DNA from: Planobacterium oryzisoli
Lineage (GTDB): Bacteria > Bacteroidota > Bacteroidia > Flavobacteriales > Weeksellaceae
NCBI RefSeq assembly: GCF_015354315.1
Contig: NZ_JADKYY010000002.1
Coordinates: 1 to 64,000 of the forward strand
Length of the DNA stretch: 64,000 nt
Reading direction: 5' to 3'
Shown here: positions 6,408 to 51,018 of the stretch, piece by piece
Numbering within the stretch: the first letter of the stretch is position 1
How the letters are laid out: each line of letters starts with the position of its first letter
Translations under genes and position numbers: made by a program
The notes under the pieces: model-generated
The model's input: the letters and a program-made list of their open reading frames with translations, nothing else
What the model was told of the DNA's origin: nothing
The model's database searches: none

Positions 6408-7898
6408 ATGATTTACGGTGCGCACCAGTTTACTTTACCGGATATTTTAAAAGTTTTAAAAGATCCATCCCAAGCCAGTCTTGATTCCGATGCAAAAAGA
6501 CGCATTCAAGCCTCAGCCCAAAATGTTCGCTCCATTGTGGACTCCGATCGGACAGTCTATGGTATCAATACTGGATTTGGACCTTTGTGTGATGTAAAGA
6601 TATCGGAGCAGCAGACTGCACAACTTCAACATAATCTAATCATATCGCATGCAGTAGGAGTTGGGGACCCCATAGACAAGTGCACTTCAAAACTAATGAT
6701 GATTGCCAAGATTCATGCTCTTTCTAAGGGGTTCTCCGGGGTCAGCTTAGAAGTAGTGGAGCGCATGCAGTTAATGTTGAATTTGGATATTATACCGGTT
6801 ATTCCAAGCCAAGGTTCTGTAGGAGCATCGGGCGATCTGGCTCCTTTAGCACATATGGTATTGCCATTAATTGGCTTGGGAAAGGTTTGGCAGAACGGGA
6901 ACGTGGTTGCTTCTCAACAGGTTCTCAGTGCACATAACCTTGAACCTCTTAAACTGGGACCAAAAGAAGGTTTAGGTCTTATAAACGGCACGCAGTTCAT
7001 CCTTTCCAATGCATTGATTGGACTTGAAAAAATGGGCTATTTGCTAGATGTCGCTGACCTTGCTGCAGCAATGTCCTTGGAGGCTTATCAGGGATCTGCG
7101 AGCCCGTATAGAGAGGAACTACATCAAATTCGTCCCTTTGCAGGGAGTATTGAAGTAGCGGCAAGAATGCGCCGGTTGTTGCAGGGTTCACAGAACCTCA
7201 CATCGCACCAAGATTGCTCGCGCGTACAAGATCCGTATTCGATGCGTTGCGTTCCTCAGGTGCATGGGGCAAGCAGGAATGCATTTTATCACTTAAGAGA
7301 TCTTGTAGAGACTGAACTTAATTCCGTTACCGATAATCCTATCGTTCTAAGTGACCAAGAAGCCATATCTGGAGGGAACTTTCATGGTCAACTGCTGGCT
7401 ATCGCGATCGATTACGCCAAGATTGCGGCGGCAGAGCTAGGTAATATATCGGACCGAAGAAGCTATTTACTTCTCGAAGGAAAATTTGGGTTGCCTCGGC
7501 TGCTCACAGAGAGTTCGGGCTTAGATTCGGGTTTTATGATTCCGCAATATACTTCTGCAGCCCTAGTAACAGAAAATAAGGCACTTTGCTATCCTGCTAG
7601 TGCGGACAGTATTCCTACAAGTCTGGGTCAGGAAGACCATGTATCTATGGGGAGTATTTCTTCGCGAACTTTTAACACAGTTCTGGACAATCTGGTGTCT
7701 ATCCTAGCAGTGGAACTTATGTTTGCAGCGCAAGGTATTGAGTTTCGCAGACCGATGAAATGCTCCGATCTAGTAGAAAGAAATTTTGAAATTATAAGAA
7801 GAAAGGTGCCAAAGCTTGAACAAGACCGGTTGATAGGAGAAGATATGCAGGCCATTGCCAAACTCATTACCTCTCGCTCTTTAGAAGTCGCATTCTAG
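6408..7898 (+). CDS. hutH: Histidine ammonia-lyase
   Basis: HutH removes ammonia from L-histidine to give urocanate, the first step of histidine breakdown. The 496-residue length is usual. The Ala-Ser-Gly triad that cyclises into the MIO prosthetic group is at 140-142 (GSVGASGDLAPLAHM). The catalytic-tyrosine segment YGINTGFG is at 51-58. The Ser-His pair at 80-81 (ISHAVG) is the selectivity position that marks histidine rather than phenylalanine or tyrosine lyases. The distal motif ALCYPASADSIPTSLGQEDHVSMG is also present. No hutU, hutI or hutG is adjacent, so the gene stands alone here; it ends 3 bases before the convergent dioxygenase gene. Confidence 0.95.
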   Translation: MIYGAHQFTLPDILKVLKDPSQASLDSDAKRRIQASAQNVRSIVDSDRTVYGINTGFGPLCDVKISEQQTAQLQHNLIISHAVGVGDPIDKCTSKLMMIAKIHALSKGFSGVSLEVVERMQLMLNLDIIPVIPSQGSVGASGDLAPLAHMVLPLIGLGKVWQNGNVVASQQVLSAHNLEPLKLGPKEGLGLINGTQFILSNALIGLEKMGYLLDVADLAAAMSLEAYQGSASPYREELHQIRPFAGSIEVAARMRRLLQGSQNLTSHQDCSRVQDPYSMRCVPQVHGASRNAFYHLRDLVETELNSVTDNPIVLSDQEAISGGNFHGQLLAIAIDYAKIAAAELGNISDRRSYLLLEGKFGLPRLLTESSGLDSGFMIPQYTSAALVTENKALCYPASADSIPTSLGQEDHVSMGSISSRTFNTVLDNLVSILAVELMFAAQGIEFRRPMKCSDLVERNFEIIRRKVPKLEQDRLIGEDMQAIAKLITSRSLEVAF

Positions 7899-7901
7899 CG
7901 A

Positions 7902-8726
7902 TTACGATAAAAGCACTGAGGTCATGCTTAAAGAGCCTCCCACTAAGGCGTCATTAAATAAATGAGCATGGTCCGTGGTGCTTCTTAAACCAAGTGTATA
8001 GATTAAGGGAAGAAAATGTTCGGGAGTTGGAACAGCACTGCGAATAGCTTCCCCTTGCTGTTGGTACTCTAAAAGTGGATTCACATTGCCTTCCACTATC
8101 CACTTGTTGGTGAGTGCTTGCGCTTCTTGTGCCCATTCCCATCCTGCCCCCACAGTATTGATGTTGTTCCAATCCAATTTGCGAAGGTTGTGTACAATGT
8201 TGCCACTGCCCACAAATAGTACTCCTTTTTTTCTCAAAGAACTTAGTTGGCGAGCCAGCTCGAAGTGTTGTTCCGTTGCTTTAGTATAATCTATACTTAG
8301 CTGTATTACAGGAACGTTTGCCAGGGGGTAAAGATGTGTAAGCATGCTCCATGCGCCATGATCCAGTCCCCATTGTTCGTCAAGATGAGCCTCTCCACTG
8401 AGCATATGGACAATATGGTTAGCCAAATGAGGTTCACCTGGAGCCGGATATTGAACTTTAAATAGCTCCTCTGGGAATCCATAGAAATCGTGATTTGTTG
8501 TTGGAGAACTGGCAGCGGTAACTTGAGTGCCCTGAGTATACCAATGTGCAGATATGCACACAATTGCTCGCGGTACTGGGAGAGAATTTGAAAGTGCCTG
8601 AATAGATCTAACAAAAACATTGTCGTCGATTGCATTCATTGGTGATCCATGCCCCAAGAACAGTACCGGCATCGCAGCAGTGTTTGGTAGTGCGTCCGTA
8701 AAATTTTTTAATTCGTGCAGAGTCAT
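7902..8726 (-). CDS. ygiD: DODA-type extradiol aromatic-ring-opening dioxygenase
   Basis: This 274-residue protein belongs to the LigB/DODA class III extradiol dioxygenases (E. coli YgiD, plant DOPA 4,5-dioxygenase). The non-heme metal histidines lie in LFLGHGSPMNAI (about 23-33), CISAHWYTQG (about 57-66) and the family hallmark WGLDHGAWSMLTHLYP; a further His is near the C-terminus. YgiD cleaves DOPA in vitro, but the physiological substrate in bacteria is unclear. It is a single minus-strand gene, convergent with hutH and separated from the upstream yceI gene by a terminator. Confidence 0.88.
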   Translation of the reverse strand: MTLHELKNFTDALPNTAAMPVLFLGHGSPMNAIDDNVFVRSIQALSNSLPVPRAIVCISAHWYTQGTQVTAASSPTTNHDFYGFPEELFKVQYPAPGEPHLANHIVHMLSGEAHLDEQWGLDHGAWSMLTHLYPLANVPVIQLSIDYTKATEQHFELARQLSSLRKKGVLFVGSGNIVHNLRKLDWNNINTVGAGWEWAQEAQALTNKWIVEGNVNPLLEYQQQGEAIRSAVPTPEHFLPLIYTLGLRSTTDHAHLFNDALVGGSLSMTSVLLS

Positions 8727-39208: not shown

Positions 39209-41269
39209 TTACGTTTTATTGTGTAAATATCTGAAAATCTCTATTTGCGATCGAAACTCAGAAAGGTCGTTTATAACATACCGGTTTTTTAATTTGTTAT
39301 CAAGAATTCGGGCCTTTGTATTGTCCTTGAGTTGGATTTGTAAAATATCCCAAAGTTCCTCCTTAATCTGTGGGTTAGTAATTTTTGCTGCTGCCTCAAT
39401 GCGGTAGTCTAAATTTCGGGTCATCCAATCTGCTGATGAGATATAAGTGTCCTTTGCTCCTTTGTTCCAAAAAACCATCACACGTGCGTGTTCCAGGTAT
39501 TCGTCCACGATACTTATTGAAAAAAGTTTCTCTTTAAATTCTTTCTGATTCACAGCACAAAATATTCCTCGAACTATCAATTGAATCTTAACACCGGCAG
39601 TAGCAGCTTCATACAGTTTATCAATAAGTCCTTTATCGCTTAAGGAGTTTACTTTTACCAAAATGAGGTTTTTTCTCCCCGCTTTGGCTTCAGTAATTTC
39701 TCTGTTTATTTGCCATTCTATTTTAGCTCGCATATGTTCGGGACAAACCAGTAAAGAAGAACATGCATTAAGTTCTTCCACTATGTCCTCCGTAGGCTTT
39801 TTAAGTACTTGGAATATTTTATTAATATCAGCCATGATCTTCCTATCCGAAGTCAGAAGCAGGTGGTCCCCGTAAATTCGGGCTGTCTTTTCATTGAAAT
39901 TGCCGGTACTGACAAAACCGTATTGAAGTGTCTTGTTGTTTACCCTTTTTTTGATAATACAGAGCTTAGCGTGTACTTTTTTGTTAGGAATACCCAGTAA
40001 AACCTGAATGCCTTCAATTTCTAGTCGCTCTTTCCATTTTAAATTGTTTTCTTCGTCAAATCGCGCCCTTAACTCCAGCATTACAGTTACCTTTTTGCCG
40101 TTACGAGCAGCATTAATAAGTGCATTGACAATTTTTGAATTGGACGCTAAACGGTATGCAGTGATGTGGATAGTTTTCACATCCGGATCCATAGCAGCCT
40201 CACGAAGCAGGTCAATTACAGGTGTAAATGTGTGGTACGGAAAACTAAGAAGCACATCTTTTTCGATAACTACATCTGTGACGCGCGCCGCACTACGGAA
40301 CGCGGGGTGAAGAAAAGAACTCCTTTCCTTGGGTCGCGGTACGGGAGTAAAGATATCAGGGAAATCCATAAAATGCTTGAAATTGTGGATTTTGTGTCCC
40401 GGGATTATGCTGTCTTTAGCCGTAAGGTTAAGTTTTCTAATAAGAAATTCCAATAAAGCAGGGTCCATCTTTTGGTCGAATACAAAGCGCGTTGGTTTTC
40501 CTTTCCTTCTGTTTTTAACCGCTTTTTCAATTTTCTGCGCAAGGGTTGTTCGGATATCATTGTCAATGTCGAACTCCGCATCTTTGGTGATTTTAAAGCA
40601 GTGTGCTTTAAACTCATCGTAACCAAAATAAGAAAATATGTGGGCAAGATTGGTTATGATAACATCTTCGAGCAACATGACATTCTTCTCGTTCTTCTCA
40701 CTTGGAAGTAATACGAAACGCCCCAATAATCTGGAAGGGACTTCAATGAGCGCATAATTACTTCTGTATTGAAACATTTTGTTGCGCATAGCAATGCCGA
40801 TGTAAAGACTTTTATCTCTTAAATAGGGCATTGGTGTGTTTTCATTTAGAAGGATTGGTATTACATTGCTTTCCACTTCATTGTCGAAATATTGCACCAC
40901 AAATTCCCGCTGTCTTTTAGTAAGATTCTCTGGAGTTTTAATAAAAACATTCTGAATCTCCATCTCCTTTTGTATTTCTTCCCACGTACGATTGAAAGCC
41001 TCTTGCTGGGTAATGACAATCTCATTTATTTTCTTCAATATTTTTGGCGGGGGTTGAAAGAAAGAATCGGAGATGAATTTTTCTTTAAAATCCATTGCAC
41101 GTTTAAGACCCGCGACGCGAACTCGGAAAAACTCATCAAGATTATTGGAGAATATTCCTAAAAATCGAATTCTCTGCGCCAAAGGCACATCCTTATCCAT
41201 TGCTTCCTGCAGTACTCGCTCGTTAAATGCAAGCCACGTAATATCGCGCGGATTGTATTGTTCAGCCAT
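39209..41269 (-). CDS. ppk1: Polyphosphate kinase 1
   Basis: PPK1 makes inorganic polyphosphate from ATP. The 686-residue protein has the expected four parts: an N-terminal helical domain beginning with YNPRDITWLAFNERVLQEA, a head domain, and two phospholipase-D-like catalytic domains. The autophosphorylated histidine is in NKKVHAKLCII near 428-438. The second catalytic segment, YGFVSTGNFNEKTARIYGDHLLLT, is near 450-473. It is upstream of ppx on the same strand and divergent from the Crp/Fnr regulator gene. Confidence 0.96.
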   Translation of the reverse strand: MAEQYNPRDITWLAFNERVLQEAMDKDVPLAQRIRFLGIFSNNLDEFFRVRVAGLKRAMDFKEKFISDSFFQPPPKILKKINEIVITQQEAFNRTWEEIQKEMEIQNVFIKTPENLTKRQREFVVQYFDNEVESNVIPILLNENTPMPYLRDKSLYIGIAMRNKMFQYRSNYALIEVPSRLLGRFVLLPSEKNEKNVMLLEDVIITNLAHIFSYFGYDEFKAHCFKITKDAEFDIDNDIRTTLAQKIEKAVKNRRKGKPTRFVFDQKMDPALLEFLIRKLNLTAKDSIIPGHKIHNFKHFMDFPDIFTPVPRPKERSSFLHPAFRSAARVTDVVIEKDVLLSFPYHTFTPVIDLLREAAMDPDVKTIHITAYRLASNSKIVNALINAARNGKKVTVMLELRARFDEENNLKWKERLEIEGIQVLLGIPNKKVHAKLCIIKKRVNNKTLQYGFVSTGNFNEKTARIYGDHLLLTSDRKIMADINKIFQVLKKPTEDIVEELNACSSLLVCPEHMRAKIEWQINREITEAKAGRKNLILVKVNSLSDKGLIDKLYEAATAGVKIQLIVRGIFCAVNQKEFKEKLFSISIVDEYLEHARVMVFWNKGAKDTYISSADWMTRNLDYRIEAAAKITNPQIKEELWDILQIQLKDNTKARILDNKLKNRYVINDLSEFRSQIEIFRYLHNKT

Positions 41270-41401: not shown

Positions 41402-42007
41402 ATGCCATTTATTATAGATGACGAAATGCTCATTAACACAAGTGCGGAAGTTAAAATGTTCTTTAAAGGGGATACAGTTGCACGTGAAGGCGAGTGCTCC
41501 TCATTTTTTCTGTATTTAAAGTCAGGTGAATTAAGTGTTTTTAATTTCACCCAGGACGGAAAGGAATTTTTACAACACAAAGTGATTGCAGGTAATTTTT
41601 TCGGTGAGCCAGCGGTGCTGCTGGAGAAGCCATTTCCTGGCCATGTGGAAGTAGCTTCTGAGAAAGCGACTTTAGTAAAGTTTACGCGAGATCGGCTTAT
41701 AGCTTTTTTACTCGAAAATCCTGAGCGAATGCTTGACTTTACAATCTCAGTAGCGGAGAAGTCCATTCGTAAGAGCCATTCGCTTAAGAACATCGTCTTT
41801 CTTAACCCTGAGGAGCGTATACTACATCAATTAAGGGACTACAAAAAAGAACACAATTGCTGTCCAACAGAAAAGATGTTGATAAGTCTTACCCGCAAAG
41901 AGATTTCTCATATGACGGGTCTTCGTATAGAGACCATTATCCGGACGGTAAAAAAAATGGAGAAAGAGGGGAAACTCGAGATAAAGAGTGGCAAAATATA
42001 CCTTTAG
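41402..42007 (+). CDS. Crp/Fnr family transcriptional regulator
   Basis: The 201-residue protein has an N-terminal cyclic-nucleotide-binding-type beta barrel (about 15-110), a dimerisation helix (about 112-130) and a C-terminal winged helix. The recognition helix contains GLRIETIIRTVKKME, with Glu177 and Arg181. These correspond to the Glu and Arg that contact the TGA core in CRP and FNR, while the FNR serine between them is Ile180. It lacks the N-terminal cysteine cluster of oxygen-sensing FNR (Cys only at 32, 153 and 154), so it is more like DNR/NnrR-type sensors; the ligand is unknown. Its place at the edge of the nos island makes it the best candidate to bind the nearby palindromes. Confidence 0.92.
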   Translation: MPFIIDDEMLINTSAEVKMFFKGDTVAREGECSSFFLYLKSGELSVFNFTQDGKEFLQHKVIAGNFFGEPAVLLEKPFPGHVEVASEKATLVKFTRDRLIAFLLENPERMLDFTISVAEKSIRKSHSLKNIVFLNPEERILHQLRDYKKEHNCCPTEKMLISLTRKEISHMTGLRIETIIRTVKKMEKEGKLEIKSGKIYL

Positions 42008-42008
42008 A

Positions 42009-42022
42009 ATGATTGAAATCAT
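42009..42022. promoter_or_regulatory. FNR-like palindrome upstream of the 42058 membrane protein gene
   Basis: ATGAT-TGAA-ATCAT is a perfect palindrome of 5-base arms with the FNR spacing of four. It starts 2 bases after the regulator's stop and its centre lies 29.5 bases before the -7 box at 42045, about -42 from the expected transcription start. That position is typical of class II activation. Confidence 0.65.
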
Positions 42023-42044
42023 ATACTTAGTACGATAATCGCTT

Positions 42045-42052
42045 TAATTTTG
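42045..42052 (+). promoter_or_regulatory. -7 box of the 42058 gene promoter
   Basis: TAATTTTG matches TAnnTTTG and ends 5 bases before the ATG at 42058, so the mRNA may be leaderless. No -33 box is evident, in line with activator dependence. Confidence 0.5.
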
Positions 42053-42057
42053 ATCGA

Positions 42058-43305
42058 ATGAATAAGTTAGATTTTTGGATGCGTTTTTCAGTGATAAACT
42101 TTGCTGTCGTAGCATTGCTTGGGGTTTTAATGCGTTATAAGATAGCATTTTCACTTCCGATGCTTGACCAGAAGCATTTGCAGGAAGCTCATTCTCATTT
42201 TGCGTTTTATGGCTGGGTAACACAAGTTATTTATGTACTTGTATTAAGATATTTAGTTAAGAACAATGCGACTGCAGATTTGCAGAAATATAAGGTGTTA
42301 CTATGGATTAATCTTGCAGCTTCGTATCTTATGGTGGTCAGCTTTGTGTACGGTGGGTACTTCTGGTTGTCCATAGCGGCGTCAACCGCCGCGTTATTGG
42401 TAAGTTTTGTGATGTTGTATTATCTTTCCCGTGACTTTAAAGCGGTCACGGAATTTTCGAAGCATTGGTTTATAGCTGGACTTTGGTTTGCGGCACTTTC
42501 CTCTATAGGAGTTTTCACCTTAAGCTTTATGACAGCAACAGACCAACTTAGTCAAACACTGTACCTTGCCAGTACTTATTACTTTTTGCATTTTCAGTAT
42601 AATGGATTTTTCATTTTTAGTTGTATAGGACTATTAGTAAGCCGTTTAAATCACTATGGAGCTGGTCTGCCTATTGAGAAGCATAGAATGATATTCATTT
42701 TGATGGTTCTGGGTTGTATTATAGGCTTTGGGCTATCGGTATTATGGATGAATTTGCCGTTATGGCTACTTTTAATAATTACTCTTGGCACTATTGCGCA
42801 AACAGTGGCTAGTTTTATTCTTTTTCAATCGATAATTGCCCAGTGGAACTTGATCACAAAGAGAATATCCAAGACGCAGCAACTTGTATGGATCTATGTA
42901 GGATTTGCATTTGCAGTAAAAATCTTGCTGCAACTAGGATCTAATATTCCCCAAGTAAGTGAGTTTGCTTTTGGATTTAGAAATGTGGTTATTGCGTACT
43001 TACATCTGGTGCTCTTAATGTGCATTTCTATTTATTTGCTAAACGAAATTTTAGCAACCAACCGATTTGGATTCAGCAAGTCCATGTGTATTGGCTTGTA
43101 TATAGTGCTGGTTGGAATAGTACTTAACGAAGCGGTACTTGGATTGATGGGTGTTCTCTCTATTAAATACATCGCATTGCCAAATTCACAGTATATGCTT
43201 TTTGCGATTTCTGTGCTTATTCTTCTAGGGCTTCTGCTAATGGTGTACGCAATGTATAGGACAGAAAAGAAGCCGCATACAACAGCGGCTTCACAAAACA
43301 CATAA
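42058..43305 (+). CDS. Polytopic membrane protein, distant heme-copper-oxidase subunit I-like (possible b-heme protein)
   Basis: The 415-residue protein has about twelve transmembrane helices. Histidines sit where heme-copper oxidase/nitric oxide reductase subunit I places heme or copper ligands: His45 and His47 in helix 2 (EAHSHFAFYGWV), His178 in helix 6 (YYFLHFQYNGFF) and His316 in helix 10 (VIAYLHLVLLM). The tandem histidines of helix 7 and the second His of helix 10 are missing, so an oxygen- or NO-reducing centre looks unlikely, while a low-spin b heme (His45/His316) is conceivable. It could also be compared with NnrS. The gene sits between the Crp/Fnr regulator and the nos operon and has an FNR-like site. 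The fold assignment is inference. Confidence 0.6.
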   Translation: MNKLDFWMRFSVINFAVVALLGVLMRYKIAFSLPMLDQKHLQEAHSHFAFYGWVTQVIYVLVLRYLVKNNATADLQKYKVLLWINLAASYLMVVSFVYGGYFWLSIAASTAALLVSFVMLYYLSRDFKAVTEFSKHWFIAGLWFAALSSIGVFTLSFMTATDQLSQTLYLASTYYFLHFQYNGFFIFSCIGLLVSRLNHYGAGLPIEKHRMIFILMVLGCIIGFGLSVLWMNLPLWLLLIITLGTIAQTVASFILFQSIIAQWNLITKRISKTQQLVWIYVGFAFAVKILLQLGSNIPQVSEFAFGFRNVVIAYLHLVLLMCISIYLLNEILATNRFGFSKSMCIGLYIVLVGIVLNEAVLGLMGVLSIKYIALPNSQYMLFAISVLILLGLLLMVYAMYRTEKKPHTTAASQNT

Positions 43306-43326
43306 AAATTAAACCATAAAAAAGTA

Positions 43327-43878
43327 CTATTCTGGCAAAATTACTCCGTCTACTACATGGACAATACCGTTTGATGCTGGTACAGAAGCTAGGATATTAA
43401 TCTTTCCATTTACAGTGGGTTTTCCATCTACCATGGTGATGGTTAAGGATTTCCCGTCCACCATTCCTAGTTTTTGACCGTCCGAGAACTGATCGGTTTT
43501 GATAACACCAACGTAGGTATGGTGGCTTAATATATCGCCCAGTTTACTGTTATTTTCTTCCTTCAACAAATCTTCTACAGTTCCTGCGGGAAGTTTATCA
43601 AATGCCTGATTGGTAGGTGCAAACACGGTGAATGGCCCTGCATTACTTAATGAAGTTGCTAAACCCGCAGCCTGAACTGCTTTAACCAGGGTGGATAAAT
43701 CCGGGTTACTACTGGCAAGTTTTACCACATCCGGTGCACTTTCTTCATCTACAACCGCCTCCTGTCCTTTTGGAGTGGTTGTCTCCGTACTTTGTGTGGT
43801 ATCGGATACCTGAGTACTTTTTTCACAGCTTACTGTAAATAGAACCAGCGATACCAATGCGATTGAGATTTTTTTCAT
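43327..43878 (-). CDS. Fasciclin-domain lipoprotein
   Basis: The 183-residue protein has a lipoprotein signal (Cys at 18, FTVSC), a Thr/Glu-rich linker to about 50, and one FAS1 domain. The FAS1 marks are SNAGPFTVFAPTNQAFDKLPAG near 102-123, ILSHHTYVGVIK near 141-152 and the final NGIVHVVDGVILPE. FAS1 domains mediate adhesion or protein contacts. It is downstream of nosY on the same strand with a 122-base gap holding an FNR-like palindrome. That suggests a separate but co-regulated transcript; its role in N2O reduction is not known. Confidence 0.9.
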   Translation of the reverse strand: MKKISIALVSLVLFTVSCEKSTQVSDTTQSTETTTPKGQEAVVDEESAPDVVKLASSNPDLSTLVKAVQAAGLATSLSNAGPFTVFAPTNQAFDKLPAGTVEDLLKEENNSKLGDILSHHTYVGVIKTDQFSDGQKLGMVDGKSLTITMVDGKPTVNGKINILASVPASNGIVHVVDGVILPE

Positions 43879-43990
43879 AGAATTAAATTTTTTGGTTGTT
43901 ACTCTAAATCAGATCGTTGAACTGAAGTAAAGTTAGAATTTATTCTATCTTGAAAATTATGCTTTAGGTCATATTTTGAAGTAGTAAGCG

Positions 43991-44004
43991 ATGATTTTTA
44001 TCAT
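43991..44004. promoter_or_regulatory. FNR-like palindrome upstream of the fasciclin gene
   Basis: ATGAT-TTTT-ATCAT is a perfect palindrome of 5-base arms with spacing four. It overlaps the last codons of nosY and lies 113 bases before the fasciclin start on the minus strand. The matching -7 box is weak (TAATTTTC at 43952-43959). Confidence 0.6.
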
Positions 44005-44768
44005 AAGTCCTTTTTATTGAATTTTAGGAGGGACCATAGAAAAGGAAGAAGCACCCATAACGTGAGAATAACAACGGATATGCCCATACCTTTTCCGCTT
44101 CCAAAGACATTCTTAAATACTGCTCCTGCTTGACCAAGCATTGCGGCAACATCTAATTGAAGCAGAACAAAGATTCGGGAAAGTCCTATGGGATTTATGG
44201 CAGCTAGGGTGGCCATAATGCTTTCTATGGGATAATCCTGAAACTGAAACATCATAACTAGTAAAATTCCATCGTAAATTATAGCAAAGAAAAGCCACAC
44301 GAATATTGCCAAACCAATGCCTACTGCCTTATCTCGAGAAAAAATAGCACATAACATTGCAAGCGCCGCAAAAATTAAGGAAAGGAAAATCCCTATAATG
44401 ATTACAGAAAAGCCCGTTTCCAGGGATGAGTACAGGAATATGGGTACCACGCATCCCACTAAAAATGCGAGTATAAGTGCCAGCGCCAAGCCCAGGAAGA
44501 TGTTGAGCCAAACACGGCTTCGTGGTATGGGTTGACTTAATAGTAATTCAATGAATTGGGAACTGTTGTAAACGTATATGGTTGAAAATATTACACTTAC
44601 CAATGGTACGACTAGAAGAATTACGTTCAGAAGGCTAAGTGTAGCTTTTGTGAAATTACTTTCCAAACCTAAAGTACTCCACGACAGAATAAAGAGGAGA
44701 ATGGTATAGACAATTATTATTTTGCTTTTAAGTATATCAAAAAAGATAAATCTAGAGATCCGGTTCAT
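44001..44768 (-). CDS. nosY: NosY-type ABC transporter permease
   Basis: NosY is the membrane part of the ABC system needed to build the copper centre of nitrous oxide reductase. The 255-residue protein has six transmembrane helices and the ABC-2 permease order. It carries the coupling segment SQFIELLLSQPIPRSRVWLNIFLG (about 71-94), a common NosY feature, and IFSRDKAVGIGLAIFVWLFFA near 142-162. Its start overlaps the nosF stop by one base. It is the last gene of the compact nos operon. Confidence 0.92.
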   Translation of the reverse strand: MNRISRFIFFDILKSKIIIVYTILLFILSWSTLGLESNFTKATLSLLNVILLVVPLVSVIFSTIYVYNSSQFIELLLSQPIPRSRVWLNIFLGLALALILAFLVGCVVPIFLYSSLETGFSVIIIGIFLSLIFAALAMLCAIFSRDKAVGIGLAIFVWLFFAIIYDGILLVMMFQFQDYPIESIMATLAAINPIGLSRIFVLLQLDVAAMLGQAGAVFKNVFGSGKGMGISVVILTLWVLLPFLWSLLKFNKKDL

Positions 44769-45478
44769 TACTGAATTGTTTTTAAGATTGAAATTATTCC
44801 TTCAGAAATTTTGTCCTTGCCGGTTTGTGTCTTTAAATCCTGTGCACTTTGATGAACTAGCACCTTTCCTTCATTCATAAAAACCACTTCGGTGAGAATT
44901 TCATCTAGCTCACTAAGTAGATGCGAAGTAATAAGTATTAATTTACCTTTATTTTTTTCCTTAATTATTTTTTGCTTTAGTATTTCAGCTGCCAAAGGAT
45001 CTAATCCGGCTGTAGGCTCGTCCAGTATGATAATGTCTGGATTAAAAAGAAATGCCAAGACTGCAGACACTTTTTGTGTGGTACCGCCTGAAAGAGTGCG
45101 CATCTTTTTTTGATAAAGCTTTTCAAGTTCAAAGGATTCAAGTAATTCGTAATCGTAATTGTGTTCTTTGGTATTTCGTGCATCCTTAACCATATTTATG
45201 GTTTGTTCGATGCTGAGATTTTCAGGATACCGGCCTATCTGCGGCATATAGCCAATGGATTTTCGGTATTGGTACGAATCATTTATGTTTTCACCTTTTA
45301 CAAATATTTGTCCTTCTTCCACAACATTGAGGCCCAGAATACATTTTATTAGTGTCGTTTTACCACAGCCATTTGGGCCTATCAAGGCAATAGCATTTCC
45401 AGTATTAAATTGCAGCTGCACATTTTGAAGTGCAGTAAAACGGTTAAATTTCTTAGTCAGATTTTTAATTTCTATCAT
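44768..45478 (-). CDS. nosF: NosF-type ABC transporter ATP-binding protein
   Basis: NosF hydrolyses ATP for the NosFY complex, which acts with NosD in copper-sulfur centre assembly. The 236-residue ATPase has Walker A ALIGPNGCGKTTLIKCILGL near 31-50, the signature TLSGGTTQKVSAVLAFL near 130-146, Walker B DIIILDEPTAGLDP near 151-164 and the switch histidine in ITSHLLSE near 184. It lies between nosD and nosY, with a 29-base gap to nosD and a 1-base overlap with nosY. Confidence 0.94.
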   Translation of the reverse strand: MIEIKNLTKKFNRFTALQNVQLQFNTGNAIALIGPNGCGKTTLIKCILGLNVVEEGQIFVKGENINDSYQYRKSIGYMPQIGRYPENLSIEQTINMVKDARNTKEHNYDYELLESFELEKLYQKKMRTLSGGTTQKVSAVLAFLFNPDIIILDEPTAGLDPLAAEILKQKIIKEKNKGKLILITSHLLSELDEILTEVVFMNEGKVLVHQSAQDLKTQTGKDKISEGIISILKTIQ

Positions 45479-45507
45479 TGCTTACATTCTTGGAACCCAA
45501 AAGGGTC

Positions 45508-46737
45508 CTATTGCATTGGATTGGGTTTAAATTTGGGTTCACGGTCCACAAAACTTTCAGGGGTGAGGCTTGGAATTATTTTCTCAGTCTTATCCAGTAA
45601 ATCCACTAGAAAGGTTTTGAATAGTAACATAACCGACGGATTTTGCTCTACCAGAACAGCATAGAGGCTTAAGGGATGAAAGGGGACGTCACCTATTTGA
45701 TCCTTGTTCAGGTCGTATCCTTCGTATTTATCCCAATAATTGGAGTTGAAATCATTCATTACTATGGTTCCATTAGTACTGACATCAAATGTGTTAGCCG
45801 TAAAATTATTTCGATGGATTTTGTTTTCCATACAGTTGGCATTGATCTTAAGCCCCCATCCGTTAGAGTCAAACAAATTAGAAGTAAAATCAATTTTTGT
45901 GGCACCATCAGCGAATATGCCGGTTGTGTTATTAACAAAGTAATTGCCTTCTATGGTGCTGTAGGATATTTCTTTTAATAGTAGACCATAGACACTGTCT
46001 CCCCAATTATTTATAAAGTGGTTGTTGTACATGCCCACATTCATTGCGTACATTACCGCTACACCAGCTCCATTGTTATCAAAGACATTTCCGGTATATG
46101 TACAATCGTTGGAGAACATGAAGTGCAATCCATAGCGGAGGTTTTTACGTGATAAATTTGAAAATATATAACAGTCTTTAGTCTTTTCAAGATAGATTCC
46201 GTCCTTATGCCCACTCACGAAATTCCTTTTGACCCATATTTCTGAACTGCCGAGAAGGTGGATTCCATCTCCCACATTTTCTTGAGAAGTACCTCGGTTG
46301 GTAGTTATTTTATTGTCTTGTATGGTGCATTGATAGCCTCTCTGAACATATATTCCAAAATAATTGTTCTCAAATATATTCTGTTCTATGATGGTATTGG
46401 AGGAAGAGTAGATATGTATGGCGGCAATACTTCGAATCTCATCTCTTCCAGAGTTAATTAACTTAAATCCAGTCACCTTGCAGTGGTCCGCATTTATATT
46501 AATGATTTCTTTCTTTAGCTCACCATCAATGATAGGGCGGCCTATTCCAATGAGGGTAAGCTGTTTGTTGAGATTAATGCCATTTTCACGGTAATGGCCT
46601 TTTTCAACCAAAATACTATCGCCGCTACGGGAGGCGGCGACAGCTTCATTGATGGTCTGATACTTTTCATTTTTTCCGACCTTTATCACCTCTGCAAGAA
46701 GAAGGCAAGGAAGGAAAACTAAAAATAATCTGAGCAT
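45508..46737 (-). CDS. nosD: NosD copper-cluster assembly protein
   Basis: NosD is the periplasmic protein that works with NosFY to mature NosZ. The 409-residue protein has a Sec signal peptide (MLRLFLVFLPCLLLAEV) and a right-handed parallel beta-helix with CASH-type repeats rich in asparagine (HIYSSSNTIIEQNIFENNYF, NNHFINNWGDSVYGLLLK). The NosD-typical end DLNKDQIGDVPFHPLSLYAVL is near 345-365. Gap to nosL is 12 bases. It is the fifth gene in the nos operon. Confidence 0.94.
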   Translation of the reverse strand: MLRLFLVFLPCLLLAEVIKVGKNEKYQTINEAVAASRSGDSILVEKGHYRENGINLNKQLTLIGIGRPIIDGELKKEIININADHCKVTGFKLINSGRDEIRSIAAIHIYSSSNTIIEQNIFENNYFGIYVQRGYQCTIQDNKITTNRGTSQENVGDGIHLLGSSEIWVKRNFVSGHKDGIYLEKTKDCYIFSNLSRKNLRYGLHFMFSNDCTYTGNVFDNNGAGVAVMYAMNVGMYNNHFINNWGDSVYGLLLKEISYSTIEGNYFVNNTTGIFADGATKIDFTSNLFDSNGWGLKINANCMENKIHRNNFTANTFDVSTNGTIVMNDFNSNYWDKYEGYDLNKDQIGDVPFHPLSLYAVLVEQNPSVMLLFKTFLVDLLDKTEKIIPSLTPESFVDREPKFKPNPMQ

Positions 46738-46749
46738 TTACATAAGATT

Positions 46750-47157
46750 TTATTGTATTATTTCTGCACCGGACTGTTCGGCAGCTTCGTTTGCTGCGCT
46801 TTTATCGCTGTAGGCTTGCGTATTGCCTCCCATAGGACTTTTTATGGAACCTCCTTTTATAAGGGACGCATTCTGTGTCTTGATAAAATCTCCCGTTGGA
46901 AAATCTACAACGTATGTAGTGCTTCCACTGGATTGTTCTGGATTTGAGGAAGCGTAGTCGTCCATACACCTTATATCGTCAAATTTATAGGTTTTTCCTT
47001 TTTCCGTTATAAGTTGCGTGGCGTATTTAGCCTCAGTAATGGTCATCTTGCAGTTGTCGCATTGGTCTTTTCCTATTGCTATTTCTTTTGGACCCTTTTC
47101 CGTACAAGAAAAAAGCAACATAGCAGATAGTAGCCAAAAGATTTTAAGATTCTTCAT
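46750..47157 (-). CDS. nosL: NosL copper chaperone lipoprotein
   Basis: NosL delivers Cu(I) to the nitrous oxide reductase system. Starting from the ATG at 47157 the protein has 135 residues and a lipoprotein signal (Cys at 18, LLFSC). The copper-binding region is CDNCKMTITEAKYATQLI (about 33-50), with the downstream KFDDIRCMDDY (about 58-68). The frame stays open to an ATG at 47199 inside the preceding gene, but that start would bury the signal peptide. The order nosL-nosD-nosF-nosY is conserved in Bacteroidetes nos clusters. Confidence 0.92.
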   Translation of the reverse strand: MKNLKIFWLLSAMLLFSCTEKGPKEIAIGKDQCDNCKMTITEAKYATQLITEKGKTYKFDDIRCMDDYASSNPEQSSGSTTYVVDFPTGDFIKTQNASLIKGGSIKSPMGGNTQAYSDKSAANEAAEQSGAEIIQ

Positions 47158-47180
47158 TTTATTAGTTTTTAATCCTGTGT

Positions 47181-47759
47181 TCAAGCCTTCTTTTTCCATT
47201 CAATAAATGCTAATATAAGCAATATTGCCCCAATACCAATCATGATGCCTCCCCCTATGTTCGGATAGGACCAGACTTCAAAGTTTAGTAGTTGTTTGTA
47301 ACCGATAAGTGGTGGTTGATACGACATTCCTGGAACCACGATGGCGGCAGAAGGATCTAGATTGTGTCCGTAGTCGTACAGCCATCTCCAGAAATCATAG
47401 ACGAAGCCTAACGCAAAGAGCATATAGATGCCAGTAAGAGTGTACAGTAAAACTTTACGATTTAACAGCACAGCACTGAGGCTTAATAATGCAAAAAAGG
47501 CCAGGGCGTACGGCAGGATGGTAAATTCCCAAAATTCATCAGCATGTATCTCTTTCATTCCAATATAATGATTCAGACCGTTGATGATTTCGTATTCACC
47601 GGTAATTTTATTTGCATGTATAAACATAGCTAATCCTTCAGGATACTGAGGGGCACTTAGATAGATGGACCAAATAGGTACAAAGATGGTAATTGCAAAT
47701 CCGATAGCACTTATTATTAAAAGTACTTTGCTTATTTTGGATAGGGAACTAGCTTTCAT
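47181..47759 (-). CDS. Nos-cluster membrane protein, probable NosB equivalent
   Basis: The 192-residue protein has about four transmembrane helices (near 11-33, 85-100, 106-122 and 166-186) and a periplasmic segment with APQYPEGLAMFIHANK (about 36-51) and IINGLNHYIGM (about 58-68). It is encoded right after nosZ, where Epsilonproteobacteria with Sec-type NosZ have nosB, an integral membrane protein of unknown mechanism. Position and topology, not sequence comparison, support that link. The conserved His and Tyr in the periplasmic loop could bind metal or heme, but this is speculation. Confidence 0.7.
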   Translation of the reverse strand: MKASSLSKISKVLLIISAIGFAITIFVPIWSIYLSAPQYPEGLAMFIHANKITGEYEIINGLNHYIGMKEIHADEFWEFTILPYALAFFALLSLSAVLLNRKVLLYTLTGIYMLFALGFVYDFWRWLYDYGHNLDPSAAIVVPGMSYQPPLIGYKQLLNFEVWSYPNIGGGIMIGIGAILLILAFIEWKKKA

Positions 47760-47831
47760 TTTTTTATTTTTTACTCTGAGAGTATAACAGGATAGCTGAA
47801 TGCTATTGCCGTACGGTCAGTTGGTTACTTA

Positions 47832-47861
47832 AAGAGAAAAGGGGCGGTAAAACCGCCCCTT
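47832..47861 (-). terminator. Hairpin/terminator after nosZ
   Basis: Perfect arms AAGGGGCGGT/ACCGCCCCTT (47839-47848 and 47852-47861) with a 3-base loop, followed on the minus strand by TTTTCTCTTT. It lies 5 bases after the nosZ stop, before the accessory genes, so it may reduce read-through or protect the nosZ message. Confidence 0.8.
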
Positions 47862-47866
47862 AATAA

Positions 47867-49861
47867 TTATTTAGTTTCACCTTGTTTGACAGGGCTTTGT
47901 GCATTGTCCTTTTTATTATTCAGTGAATATATCAAAGGTGTATTGCTACCTGCAGGGGAGACTCTTACGTATCCCTGCATTTCTTGATGCAGTGCGGAAC
48001 AGAAGTCGGTACAGTACATTGGGTACATACCCGGCTTCTCAGGTACCCACTTTAGAGTGGAAGTTTCTCCTGGCATGATCAGTAGTTCTGCTGTTTTTGC
48101 TCCCTTAATCGCAAATCCATGTGGAACATCCCAATCTTGCTCTAAGTTAGTTACGTGGAAGTATACCTCGTCACCCACTTTTATTCCTTCAATGTTGTCA
48201 GGGGAGAAGTGTGAGCGTATAGATGTCATATAAACATGGACTTTATTACCTTCTCTCACCACCTTGCTCTCTGCTTCCCCTTTAGTTGCGTATGGGTGCT
48301 TGTTTTCTCCGATGTTATAAAACTTCACTTGGTCTTTGGTAAATAATTCGGCTGGTCCTGCCTGTGCATAATGCGGTTCACCAATTGTAGGGAAGTCTAG
48401 AAGTAGTTTCATTTTATCTCCACTGATGTCAAATAATTGCGCAGAGTGGGCAAGTTCTGGTCCTGTTGGAAGGAATCTGTCTTTGGTAATTTTGTTGTAC
48501 GCAACAAGGTATTTACCGTAAGGTTTGCTTGAGTCACCACCAACTACCATTAAGTGTCCTACAGAATAGAAAGTTGGTTGTCTGTCAAGAACTTCCAATG
48601 TTTCAATGTTCCACTTAACTACTTCGGAAGATACAAAGTGAGAGGTGTAGGCATTTCCTTTGCCGTCAAATTCTGTGTGCAGAGGTCCTAGACCAGGCTT
48701 CTGTACTTCTCCATGCAATGCTGCTTCGTATTTGATAATTGGAATACCGTCAAATTCACCAGCAAAATTTTTCTCAGCAATTGCTTTTTGAATTTTGTCA
48801 AAGCTAAAAACTGGAATTAGTGCAGCTAGCTTTCCAGAGCCCACGATGTACTCACCTGTTGGATCTACATCGCATCCGTGAGGGGATTTAGGGCAAGGAA
48901 TTAGATAACAAATGTCTTTTAATTCACTAGCTGTTAGAACGGTCACTTCTTTTTTGATAGTGGAAGTTGCTGTATGCGTTTCTTCGTCAAACTTGTTGTG
49001 TGCATATTCAACCGCTACTTTCTTGCCTTTACCAGCTTTTAGGTATTCTTCTGCTTTTTTCCAATTCACAGCCATGATAAAGTCTTTATCATTTTGTGAA
49101 GCATTTACTTCTAATAAGGAATTGGCTTGTTCTGAATTGTAGCATGAAAAGAAGAACCACCCATGGGATTTATTCTTGCCTGCGTGCGAAAGATCAAAGT
49201 TAAAACCAGGAGCTTCAATCTGGAAGCTGATATCCATTTCTCCAGACTCTTTGTCTACACCGATGAATGACAAGTAACCTTTGAAGTTTTGTTTGAATGA
49301 TTCAATTGGCACATCATCTTGACCGTCTGCTGGAACCGCAAAGCGGGTTCCTGCAACAATATACTCCGTATTTTGTGTTAGGAAAGGTGACGAGTGGTTA
49401 CCTGCAGAATTCGGGATTTCTAGAATTTCTGTGGTCTTAAAGGATTTCAAATCGATTCGTGCCACCCGTGGGGTATTGTTCGCATTGGCAAAAAGCCATC
49501 TTCCGTCGATTTCCCCATTAGTCTGGGATAGGGATAAATGGTGCTGGTCGTCCCATGGAATGAAACCATGAGATGTTTCAAGCATCGGTTTGGTTTCTTC
49601 GCTGTATCCGTATCCATTTTCCGGATGAACGGAGAATACAGGAATGATTTTCAGCGTACGTCCACTTGGCAGTCCTACGACACTAACTTGGCCGTTAAAT
49701 CCTCCGCTGACAAAGTTGTACACTTCATCATGTTCACCGGGAGCTACATACACTTTCTGTGCAGCGTCTCCGGCTACCGCATTTTCGGTTCCTTTTGGCT
49801 TGCACGCCAAAAGCGATACTGCTGCTAACGCAGTAATACCAAAACTCTTGTAAGCTTTCAT
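47867..49861 (-). CDS. nosZ: Nitrous oxide reductase, Sec-type (clade II)
   Basis: NosZ reduces N2O to N2, the last step of denitrification. The 664-residue protein has a seven-bladed propeller carrying the Cu4S (CuZ) site, with histidines in DDQHHLSLSQ (about 104-113) and others in SPHGCDVDPTGEYIVGSGK, GPLHTEFDG, VGHLMVVGG and GEPHYAQAGP. The C-terminal cupredoxin domain has the CuA ligands Cys617, Cys621, His625 and Met628 (CTDFCSALHQEM). There is no twin-arginine signal: the N-terminus MKAYKSFGITALAAVSLLAC is Sec-type and ends in a lipobox-like LLAC, so it may be lipid-anchored. This marks the clade II (atypical) enzyme. Confidence 0.96.
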   Translation of the reverse strand: MKAYKSFGITALAAVSLLACKPKGTENAVAGDAAQKVYVAPGEHDEVYNFVSGGFNGQVSVVGLPSGRTLKIIPVFSVHPENGYGYSEETKPMLETSHGFIPWDDQHHLSLSQTNGEIDGRWLFANANNTPRVARIDLKSFKTTEILEIPNSAGNHSSPFLTQNTEYIVAGTRFAVPADGQDDVPIESFKQNFKGYLSFIGVDKESGEMDISFQIEAPGFNFDLSHAGKNKSHGWFFFSCYNSEQANSLLEVNASQNDKDFIMAVNWKKAEEYLKAGKGKKVAVEYAHNKFDEETHTATSTIKKEVTVLTASELKDICYLIPCPKSPHGCDVDPTGEYIVGSGKLAALIPVFSFDKIQKAIAEKNFAGEFDGIPIIKYEAALHGEVQKPGLGPLHTEFDGKGNAYTSHFVSSEVVKWNIETLEVLDRQPTFYSVGHLMVVGGDSSKPYGKYLVAYNKITKDRFLPTGPELAHSAQLFDISGDKMKLLLDFPTIGEPHYAQAGPAELFTKDQVKFYNIGENKHPYATKGEAESKVVREGNKVHVYMTSIRSHFSPDNIEGIKVGDEVYFHVTNLEQDWDVPHGFAIKGAKTAELLIMPGETSTLKWVPEKPGMYPMYCTDFCSALHQEMQGYVRVSPAGSNTPLIYSLNNKKDNAQSPVKQGETK

Positions 49862-49887
49862 ATAGTATTTGATTTTCTGTAAGAAGG

Positions 49888-49917
49888 AAAAAAGGTGGCA
49901 GGATTGTACCCTGCCAC
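49888..49917 (-). terminator. Hairpin with T run between the cytochrome c gene and nosZ
   Basis: On the minus strand GTGGCAGG pairs with CCTGCCAC (49895-49902 with 49910-49917) around a 7-base loop, followed by CTTTTTTCC. It has the form of an intrinsic terminator but sits between two genes that should be co-expressed, so partial termination or RNA processing is likely. Confidence 0.65.
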
Positions 49918-49925
49918 GATAGAGA

Positions 49926-50426
49926 TTACTTTGCTCCGTCGATTTCTCTCATGTATTCAAGTACATTCCGAGCTTCAGTATCTGTAAGACCCTGGTTAGG
50001 CATTCTTACTAAACAAAGTTCGAGTTGCTTTTGAAGTTCAGGATCAACGTCAATCATAGGGTCAGGATTGGATATAAAATTCATAATCCAATGCGGAGTA
50101 TTTCTTTCTGTTACTCCTTTCCATCCCGGACCTACCAATCTCTCGTCGGTTGTTTTATGGCAGGAAATACACTTAACGTCCGCCACAGCTTTACCTTGGG
50201 CCGCCATAGCTGGATCAAACGAGGATACATCTACGTTGGTTTCATCGTATTTACCTAGACCTCTTTTCGGGTCGTACTCACTGGCGGAAGAGCTGGCAGT
50301 AGTAGTGGTTTCAGTCGTGGTAGCAGAAGAGTCTGCCGTTGGAATGGAACTTTCCTTTTTGTCGCCTCCACAGGATACTAATGCAAGTACAAGTGAGGAG
50401 AGTGCTAGAATTTTCAATCTTTTCAT
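49926..50426 (-). CDS. Monoheme cytochrome c lipoprotein of the nos operon
   Basis: The 166-residue protein has a lipoprotein signal (Cys at 19, ALVSC), a long Thr/Ser-rich linker (about 25-52) and a class I cytochrome c domain with heme motif CISCH (86-90). The likely axial methionine is in RMPNQGLTD (Met142). It heads the nos operon, just upstream of nosZ, and is the natural candidate to hand electrons to the NosZ CuA site. Promoter elements lie in the 166-base region shared with the divergent cytochrome gene. Confidence 0.9.
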   Translation of the reverse strand: MKRLKILALSSLVLALVSCGGDKKESSIPTADSSATTTETTTTASSSASEYDPKRGLGKYDETNVDVSSFDPAMAAQGKAVADVKCISCHKTTDERLVGPGWKGVTERNTPHWIMNFISNPDPMIDVDPELQKQLELCLVRMPNQGLTDTEARNVLEYMREIDGAK

Positions 50427-50448
50427 AATGGTTTTTTTTAGTATGAAA

Positions 50449-50456
50449 CAAAAGTA
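50449..50456 (-). promoter_or_regulatory. -7 box of the nos operon promoter
   Basis: On the minus strand TACTTTTG matches TAnnTTTG, 23 bases before the cytochrome c ATG at 50426. The FNR-like palindrome centre at 50486.5 is 30.5 bases upstream, at about -43 from the expected start of transcription. Confidence 0.55.
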
Positions 50457-50478
50457 GTTTAGATTCGTATTTTGACTT

Positions 50479-50494
50479 TATGACCCTAGTCATA
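50479..50494. promoter_or_regulatory. FNR-like palindrome between the divergent cytochrome genes
   Basis: TATGAC-CCTA-GTCATA has perfect 6-base arms with spacing four, the Crp/Fnr geometry. It can serve the leftward nos operon (about -43) and the rightward cytochrome gene (about -68 from the start expected after the box at 50542). Confidence 0.7.
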
Positions 50495-50541
50495 GAGTTG
50501 ATATGACTTTTATTAGGTGGGTAAAAAAAGAATAAAATTTC

Positions 50542-50549
50542 TATATTTG
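50542..50549 (+). promoter_or_regulatory. -7 box of the divergent cytochrome c gene
   Basis: TATATTTG matches TAnnTTTG, 43 bases before the ATG at 50593. No -33 TTG is present at the usual spacing. Confidence 0.5.
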
Positions 50550-50592
50550 CAGTAGTGTACCACTATACTTATCAAATATACAAAAATAATCT

Positions 50593-50970
50593 ATGAGAAA
50601 TATTACATTTTTATTACTTGCCGGGTCAGTTCTTTTTTCATGTTCCAAGAAAGAGGAAAACGTTGCAGTAGAGTCTAATGTGATGCTTGAAGAACCTGCC
50701 GTTGCAACAGCTACAAGTACGCAGCCTGAAGGTCTGACATTAATTCAAGGCATGGACTGCTTGACTTGCCATAAAGAGGAAGGAGCTTTAGTTGGACCTT
50801 CGTACAAAGAGGTCGCTGCTAAATATACTGAGGCAGATATTGATCAATTAGCAGATAAGATTATAAACGGAAGCGTTGGTGTGTGGGGCCAAATTCCAAT
50901 GACTCCCCATGCCGGACTGAGTAAAGAAAACGCTAAAAAAATGGTAGAGTATATTTTAACACTTAAATAA
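50593..50970 (+). CDS. Monoheme cytochrome c lipoprotein
   Basis: The 125-residue protein has a lipoprotein signal (Cys at 17, VLFSC), a linker of about 30 residues and a small class I cytochrome c domain. The heme motif is CLTCH (56-60), and the axial methionine is probably Met103 in IPMTPHAGLS. It lies opposite to the nos operon and shares the FNR-like palindrome with it, so it may be a second electron carrier for NosZ or link to a terminal oxidase. It is a single gene followed by a terminator. Confidence 0.9.
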   Translation: MRNITFLLLAGSVLFSCSKKEENVAVESNVMLEEPAVATATSTQPEGLTLIQGMDCLTCHKEEGALVGPSYKEVAAKYTEADIDQLADKIINGSVGVWGQIPMTPHAGLSKENAKKMVEYILTLK

Positions 50971-50988: not shown

Positions 50989-51018
50989 AAAGCACCTTTT
51001 TTAAGAGGTGCTTTTTTT
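50989..51018 (+). terminator. Terminator after the cytochrome c gene
   Basis: Stem AAAGCACCT/AGGTGCTTT (50989-50997 with 51006-51014) followed by a T run. Confidence 0.9.

Follow-up and report, generated by a model that had tools for sequence, protein, structure and literature searches.

A clade II nitrous oxide reductase island in Planobacterium oryzisoli with a putative dedicated Crp/Fnr-family regulator and an oxidase-like membrane protein as candidate electron donor

The DNA analyzed here (referred to as the window; 64,000 nucleotides, positions 1 to 64,000 of contig NZ_JADKYY010000002.1, assembly GCF_015354315.1) comes from Planobacterium oryzisoli, a member of the Weeksellaceae, and holds an intact Sec-type clade II gene cluster for the reduction of nitrous oxide (N2O), cytA-nosZBLDFY. 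The cluster belongs to a discrete island of eleven genes, ~9.6 kb long, located between ppk (39209–41269, minus strand) and dnaK (51118, plus strand). The order of the genes across the island is Crp/Fnr regulator, hco, fas, nosY, nosF, nosD, nosL, nosB, nosZ, cytA, and cytB. Some of these names were coined here, with hco standing for a 415-residue protein with 12 transmembrane (TM) segments, fas for a fasciclin lipoprotein, and cytA and cytB for two lipoprotein cytochromes c. The features of the island are as follows.

41402–42007, plus strand: fnr, Crp/Fnr-family regulator of 201 residues, with a cNMP-binding fold (PF00027) and a Crp-type helix-turn-helix (PF13545), both above cut-off
42009–42022, no strand assigned: palindrome ATGATTGAAATCAT, 36 bp upstream of hco
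42058–43305, plus strand: hco, 415 residues, 12 TM segments, predicted heme-copper-oxidase subunit I fold, with H45, H47, H178, and H316 conserved
43327–43878, minus strand: fas, fasciclin-domain lipoprotein (PF02469)
43991–44004, no strand assigned: palindrome ATGATTTTTATCAT, 113 bp upstream of fas, overlapping the end of nosY
44001–44768, minus strand: nosY, ABC permease (PF12679, above cut-off)
44768–45478, minus strand: nosF, ABC ATPase (PF00005, above cut-off)
45508–46737, minus strand: nosD (TIGR04247, 407.4 bits, cut-off 300)
46750–47199, minus strand: nosL lipoprotein (PF05573, above the Pfam cut-off), the true start being probably a later Met, that of MKNLKIF, as judged by eye
47181–47759, minus strand: nosB, membrane protein of 192 residues with LNHYIGM and YGHN motifs
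47839–47861, minus strand: GC-rich stem-loop directly after the nosZ stop codon, a stable element conserved in the nosZ–nosB spacer
47867–49861, minus strand: nosZ, Sec-dependent clade II N2O reductase (TIGR04246, ligand columns), with a lipoprotein-type signal by eye
49926–50426, minus strand: cytA, lipoprotein cytochrome c and candidate donor to NosZ, with CISCH and an invariant Met142
50480–50493, no strand assigned: palindrome ATGACCCTAGTCAT, between the divergent cytA and cytB
50593–50970, plus strand: cytB, second lipoprotein cytochrome c, lineage-restricted
50989–51018, plus strand: hairpin followed by a T-run, terminator-like by eye, located after cytB and ending the island before dnaK

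A sequence-only reading of the window had proposed the series cytochrome c, nosZ, nosB-like gene, nosL, nosD, nosF, and nosY, and each of these genes, like the flanking genes that it named, is present in its place. NosZ matches the Sec-dependent family TIGR04246 with 934.9 bits (cut-off 625), whereas its score against the Tat family TIGR04244, 372.2 bits, lies under the cut-off of that family (625). Alignment with a NosZ of solved structure places a histidine at every column that we take to be a CuZ or CuA ligand position, and the CuA motif CxxxCxxxHxxM is kept. The protein encoded by the adjoining nosB contains INGLNHYIGM and YGHNLDP, and stretches LNHYIGM and YGHN are given as features of NosB in PMC9697520. 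In a sample of 80 nosZ loci, searched by BLAST with the proteins of the window and, for hco, also with a hidden Markov model (HMM), the NosB homologue is fused to NosL in 28 cases. An identification of NosB from structure was tried and led to no conclusion, with the model (predicted local distance difference test, pLDDT, 93.0) finding claudin/TARP-like proteins as its top PDB matches, none of them at E 0.001. A stem-loop in the nosZ–nosB spacer (47760–47866) reaches z < −2 in 66 of 69 loci (30 mononucleotide shuffles each), and it perhaps sets high expression of nosZ over low expression of the accessory genes. The cytA–nosZ spacer of the window has a strong stem-loop as well, but just 16 of 49 such spacers reach z < −2, and no claim is made for it.

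A homologue of cytA is present in all 80 loci. Its Cys138, invariant in 81/81 sequences, is close to the presumed axial Met142 and may be a metal or disulfide site. In turn, cytB is the weakest member of the island, with homologues in 27 of the 80 loci and relatives that are also seen in nirK/nor clusters or that persist where nos is absent. Among the six-frame open reading frames (ORFs) of the window with at least 60 residues, the CxxCH motif occurs in the two cytochromes only and CxxCxxCxxxC in none, so no NosR- or NosG/H-like iron-sulfur protein is encoded in the window, in agreement with the earlier description. That description had also credited the locus with everything known to be needed to mature and feed NosZ; as to the feeding, this is more than the genes show, with hco being a candidate for the quinol-to-cytochrome step.

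Comparison with relatives that lack nosZ bears out the view of the locus as a self-contained island. Of 20 nosZ-less genomes searched for ppk, 14 had their ppk region compared; the other six, whose ppk reached at most 42% identity, were left out. In eight of the 14, ppk and dnaK are neighbors and diverge as they do in the window (in one case with an 82-residue ORF between them), and the term island is supported by these empty sites. Three other genomes have one gene between ppk and dnaK, and three have no dnaK in the stretch. Two of the empty sites (G139 and G148; G and L numbers denote our genomes and loci) come from a genus, g26, in which 31 listed genomes carry nosZ. The junction is not the sole site of nos clusters, ppk and dnaK each being present in 21 of the 80 nosZ loci within the retrieved stretch. 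In the nosZ-less L205, the gene between ppk and dnaK is a homologue of cytB (46%, 7583–7948); cytB can thus persist without nos, and this copy is a possible remnant of island loss. The nearest relatives of NosZ among those retrieved, at 87–90% identity, come from genomes or metagenome-assembled genomes of Chryseobacterium and Kaistella.

The three copies of ATGAY-N4-RTCAT in the window all fall inside the island, compared with 0.30 expected and with three reached in one of 100 shuffles. The palindrome in its full form, TATGAY-N4-RTCATA, recurs upstream of cytA/cytB, fas, hco, and fnr. Of 79 loci, 53 have an exact site within 250 bp upstream of cytA, where mononucleotide shuffling gives 0.10; the corresponding counts, which overlap because one palindrome may serve two divergent genes, are 24/27 for cytB, 24/49 for fas, 17/56 for fnr, and 14/55 for hco, and for other nos genes 2/80 (nosZ), 5/80 (nosB), and 0/78 (nosD). 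The five palindromes upstream of nosB (L006, L007, L010, L023, and L024 are examples; 0.10 after shuffling) lie, by their distance, in the nosZ–nosB spacer and may mark an extra internal promoter. When every 5-mer inverted repeat with a gap of 0–10 is counted without bias over dereplicated loci, TATGA-N6-TCATA ranks at the top for cytA (24/50), fas (14/29), and hco (7/33), and upstream of fnr the neighboring register TTATG-N8-CATAA comes first (7/34). At least one exact site is present in 53 of the 56 loci that contain fnr.

Homologues of fnr were found by BLAST in 56 of the 80 loci, eight of them at about 24–30% identity. No cysteine column exceeds 19 of 57 regulator sequences, which makes oxygen sensing by an FNR cluster unlikely; judged by its sequence, the regulator is not of the FNR type, as it lacks the conserved cysteines that would bind a [4Fe-4S] cluster. 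An exact copy of the textbook FNR site, TTGAT-N4-ATCAA, does not occur in the window. Thus, of the earlier claims that the island has its own regulator and that the flanking genes share FNR-like sites with the operon, what remains is a Crp/Fnr-superfamily gene inside the island and a shared palindrome, without the oxygen-sensing FNR protein and its type of site. The island-encoded Crp/Fnr protein is proposed as the putative dedicated regulator of the island. Counted over the whole genome, the bare pattern has 14 sites compared with 15 for a reversed control, so it is uninformative outside the island. The gene of the copper nitrite reductase, nirK, was considered as a conserved member of the regulon and rejected: in P. 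oryzisoli an exact palindrome stands 74 bp ahead of nirK, but none is found upstream of nirK in 19 nosZ-positive and 20 nosZ-less relatives, and with one mismatch allowed the counts are 4/19 and 2/20.

The hco gene is a common but not universal partner of nosZ, detected in 55 of the 80 loci by BLAST and in 61 by HMM. Its position varies, being downstream of nosZ in 36 loci and upstream in 19. The pair fnr-hco follows nosY in Weeksellaceae and Flavobacterium, precedes cytA in many Chitinophagaceae and in Daejeonella, and is flipped in L023 and L026, and the linkage to nosZ persists, with differing gene orders, in Chitinophagaceae, Sphingobacteriaceae, Flavobacteriaceae, and Cyclobacteriaceae. 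The suggestion that the flanking genes are parts of the N2O system is supported by conservation with nosZ for three of the four, fnr, hco, and fas (the last in 49/80 loci), with cytB as the weaker case.

Co-occurrence, counted with kinship ignored, points in the same direction. In a scan of 296 genomes of the family, 64 of which have nosZ above cut-off, strong hco orthologues (at least 480 bits, a line set after the scores were known) are present in 54 of the 64 nosZ-positive genomes and in 1 of the 232 others. That single genome is G056, in which fnr-hco adjoins ppk on a 10.9-kb contig and no nos genes stand next to the pair. With all weaker matches included, the counts become 62/64 and 27/232. 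In a sample of 296 genomes from the phylum, nosZ was found in 99, hco (E 1e-15) in 46, and both in 37, which corresponds to hco in 37/99 nosZ-positive and 9/197 other genomes; the two genes are within 15 kb of each other in 28 genomes. A search of plasmids for hco returned one distant match, annotated as hypothetical.

A fusion of hco with the cytochrome is seen in six of the 80 loci (L070, L074, L075, L077, L078, and L079, all from Cyclobacteriaceae) and in L151, where hco and cytA form a single ORF of about 600 residues directly upstream of nosZ. In L150, which is a stretch of L075, the hco part comprises residues 19–414 and the cytochrome part, with CTACH, residues 468–591; the latter is 48% identical to cytA of the window (E 6e-40). 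In L145 and L146, one nosZ cluster is flanked by two different copies of hco, one copy in each being near an Rrf2-like gene.

No Pfam or NCBIfam family was matched by Hco, and none of 46 members of its family matches COX1 (PF00115) or NnrS (PF05940) at E 0.5. The predicted model (pLDDT 91.4) superimposes on the chain of a cbb3 oxidase (8smr_E) with a Z-score of 35.7 and a root-mean-square deviation (rmsd) of 3.4 for 406 aligned residues, and on that of a nitric oxide reductase, cNOR (4xyd_A), with a Z-score of 34.6 and an rmsd of 3.1 for 393 residues. Of the histidines, H45 and H316 are present in all 98 family members, H178 in 96 of them, and H47 in 95; every other histidine column stays below 90%, and a conserved His-His pair (TM7) is absent. 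Of the features that define a heme-copper oxidase, the 12-TM subunit I fold is thus present in the model, and the six histidine ligands and a match to PF00115 are missing. In a collinear alignment the oxidase motif HFH of TM10 lies opposite YLH of Hco, so the histidine of the low-spin heme would be kept and that of the high-spin heme replaced by Tyr314. By its sequence the CuB/FeB site of Hco is incomplete, and a bis-His heme in the modeled protein is plausible.

The remaining flanking gene, fas, is the single gene of the genome for which a PF02469 match was found. In several loci it is located inside the nos operon, between nosZ and nosB (L040, L064, and L145), between cytA and nosZ (L147 and L149), or between nosL and nosD (L153).

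Taken as a whole, we lean slightly toward reading the locus as a discrete clade II N2O island under one Crp/Fnr regulon, in which Hco would pass electrons to CytA and NosZ. The island would have been inserted at, or lost from, the ppk–dnaK junction. Its regulator would bind TATGAY-N4-RTCATA in front of cytA (and with it nosZBLDFY), cytB, fas, and hco, switching on a single regulon. NosDFYL and NosB would mature the copper sites of a Sec-exported, lipid-anchored NosZ, and Fas may be a periplasm-facing accessory of the system. Hco would be a subunit I fold that has lost the ligands of CuB/FeB and kept a bis-His heme b site, and electrons, probably from menaquinol, would pass from it to the lipoprotein CytA and on to the CuA center of NosZ, with Hco standing in for NosR of clade I or NosGHC of Wolinella. 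Electron transfer is preferred as the role of Hco because of the fusion with CytA and because the island has no other protein on the quinol side. That Hco is a new kind of respiratory protein, a terminal-oxidase subunit I without its catalytic metal site that now serves NosZ, and perhaps NirK, as a quinol:cytochrome c donor across much of the Bacteroidota, is a more tentative proposal, which we hold to be possible rather than probable.

A number of observations weigh against these proposals. The hco profile matches no PDB sequence even at E 10, and profile–profile alignment (hhalign) of Hco with oxidases is weak, the best match (E 3e-4, probability 40%) having a shifted register and the collinear one an E of 0.0019. 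The oxidase profile comprised 12 sequences, and 4 of 30 oxidase loci passed the motif filter. Matches fall in several registers, as is possible with a pseudo-symmetric fold, and for these reasons the mapping of the ligands is uncertain and a relation of Hco to oxidases by sequence was not accepted. Where hco is missing (19 loci), the DNA spans at least 17 kb in 12 cases and less in 7, and in the phylum sample 62 of the 99 nosZ-positive genomes have no hco match at E 1e-15; hco is therefore not universally needed. The fused genes form one clade in a quick tree and so count as one event. Neither fnr nor a palindrome within 300 bp upstream is present in the six fused loci, so the palindrome regulon does not extend to them and other control must apply there. 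The presence of fnr in a locus is no significant predictor of a cytA site (35/47 compared with 9/16, p 0.21). Finally, relatives of hco without nosZ adjoin genes of qNor and RIC (family-tested, L085) and, by eye, hemerythrin-, globin-, and Rrf2-like genes, and qNor takes electrons directly from quinol; five further relatives (L088, L090, L096, L097, and L102) have no N-oxide gene nearby.

The relatives beside qNor and RIC speak for the main rival to electron transfer, in which Hco would be a membrane protein of nitric oxide (NO) handling or tolerance, analogous to NnrS, that protects the cells and the copper enzyme and does not feed NosZ. On the quick tree, hco changes between a nos and an NO context at least four or five times, and NnrS (PF05940) has no match above cut-off in 99 genomes of the order. 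The genome of P. oryzisoli itself carries nirK on contig C15 (L105:9389–10420; TIGR02376, 357.8 bits, above cut-off), in a cluster that includes an Rrf2 regulator, hemerythrin, and SCO. A genome search gave a single COX1-family protein, on contig C3 and cbb3-type by eye, leaving no second one as a possible NorB; no NorB was thus found, and the genome is one with NirK and without a detected NorB. These searches also fit the earlier remark that no nitrite or NO reductase gene is present in the window, where the protein-family scan covered the island proteins. Furthermore, Cloacibacterium strains CB-01 and CB-03 have a predicted pathway from NO through N2O to N2, so NO would be met by them (PMC9239227).

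The same alternative has to accommodate the fusion of hco to a cytochrome c of the NosZ type and the fact that strong hco orthologues follow nosZ within the family, whereas nirK is found in nosZ-positive and nosZ-negative genomes alike. Cloacibacterium normanense (L019) carries the same module, and CB-01 is reported to have no genes of dissimilatory nitrate and nitrite reduction (PMC11168931), so it should make no NO itself. On this evidence NO handling is a possible role of Hco, but a less probable one than electron transfer. A relation of Hco to NnrS was rejected, there being no link at the level of Pfam and one partial match below cut-off in the order. Two side observations concern the surroundings of nirK. 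The neighboring L105:10850–12106 encodes a polytopic protein of 419 residues, oxidase-like by eye and with a HAHAGLAGW motif, that is unmatched in Pfam, is matched weakly by a cbb3 family of NCBIfam, and is possibly another degenerate oxidase relative. Additionally, a qNor-like ORF of at least 300 residues lies near nirK (~5 kb on each side) in 0 of 20 nosZ-positive and in 19 of 20 nosZ-less Weeksellaceae (L105–L124 versus L125–L144).

An assignment of Hco and Fas as factors of copper or heme assembly for NosZ, rather than electron carriers, would agree with their linkage to nosDFYL, with the shared palindromes, and with the location of fas between nosZ and nosB or among the maturation genes in several loci. 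However, the fusion partner of Hco is a cytochrome and not NosL, whose own partner is NosB, and homologues of hco are also present in clusters without NosZ, so we regard this assignment as improbable. That the flanking genes are bystanders without a role in N2O reduction, kept by recent common ancestry, as the largely colinear block of the Weeksellaceae and the ppk and/or dnaK borders, like those of the window, in 21 of the 80 loci might suggest, is scarcely credible in view of the linkage of hco in four families with differing gene orders, the palindromes conserved in most of those families, and the fusion in Cyclobacteriaceae.

Clade II clusters of other Bacteroidota (Flavobacterium azooxidireducens, PMC9697520, and Dyadobacter fermentans) have the same order nosZ-nosB-nosL-nosD-nosF-nosY, and this core order, NosB, and the NosB–NosL fusion are already published (PMC9697520). 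The main text of that paper contains neither of the words fasciclin and Fnr, and the module of regulator, hco, and fas, the palindrome, and the hco–cytochrome fusion did not come up in searches of open-licence papers, a result that does not prove them new. One paper, PMC10199937, mentions fasciclin and nosZ once each. As proposed here, the Crp/Fnr superfamily controls nos genes of clade II, and such control is described for NssA/NssB/Dnr of Wolinella and Nitrosophilus, with a consensus of TTGA-N6-TCAA and regulator genes located by nap and nor (PMC11539149); in contrast, the island studied here has TATGA-N6-TCATA and a regulator gene inside it. The subunits I of cbb3 and cNOR share the 12-TM fold with the model of Hco but differ from it in that Hco has four conserved histidines, no conserved His-His pair, and no PF00115 match. 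NnrS is a polytopic heme/copper membrane protein of NO-responsive regulons, and no sequence relation to it was found for Hco. The nos system of Wolinella succinogenes reportedly includes NosB and NosG-C1-C2-H (Hein 2017, as cited in PMC9697520 and PMC11168931). A clade II NosZ, NosB, and c-type cytochrome donors are common to it and to the island, whereas NosG/H iron-sulfur proteins have no counterpart in the window, where Hco is proposed instead.

Bacteroidota made up 70.6% of the genomes with clade II nosZ in one wastewater survey (PMC11409646), and a Cloacibacterium strain is under test against N2O from farmland (PMC11168931). Electrons take a different route in clade II than in clade I, apparently with a larger gain in proton-motive force (PMC11168931). 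If the role proposed for it is true, Hco would be the missing route by which electrons enter clade II NosZ in bacteria like Cloacibacterium. With a regulator, an operator, a candidate for electron transfer, and an accessory lipoprotein named, both the electron supply of NosZ and its induction would become open to single-gene deletions.

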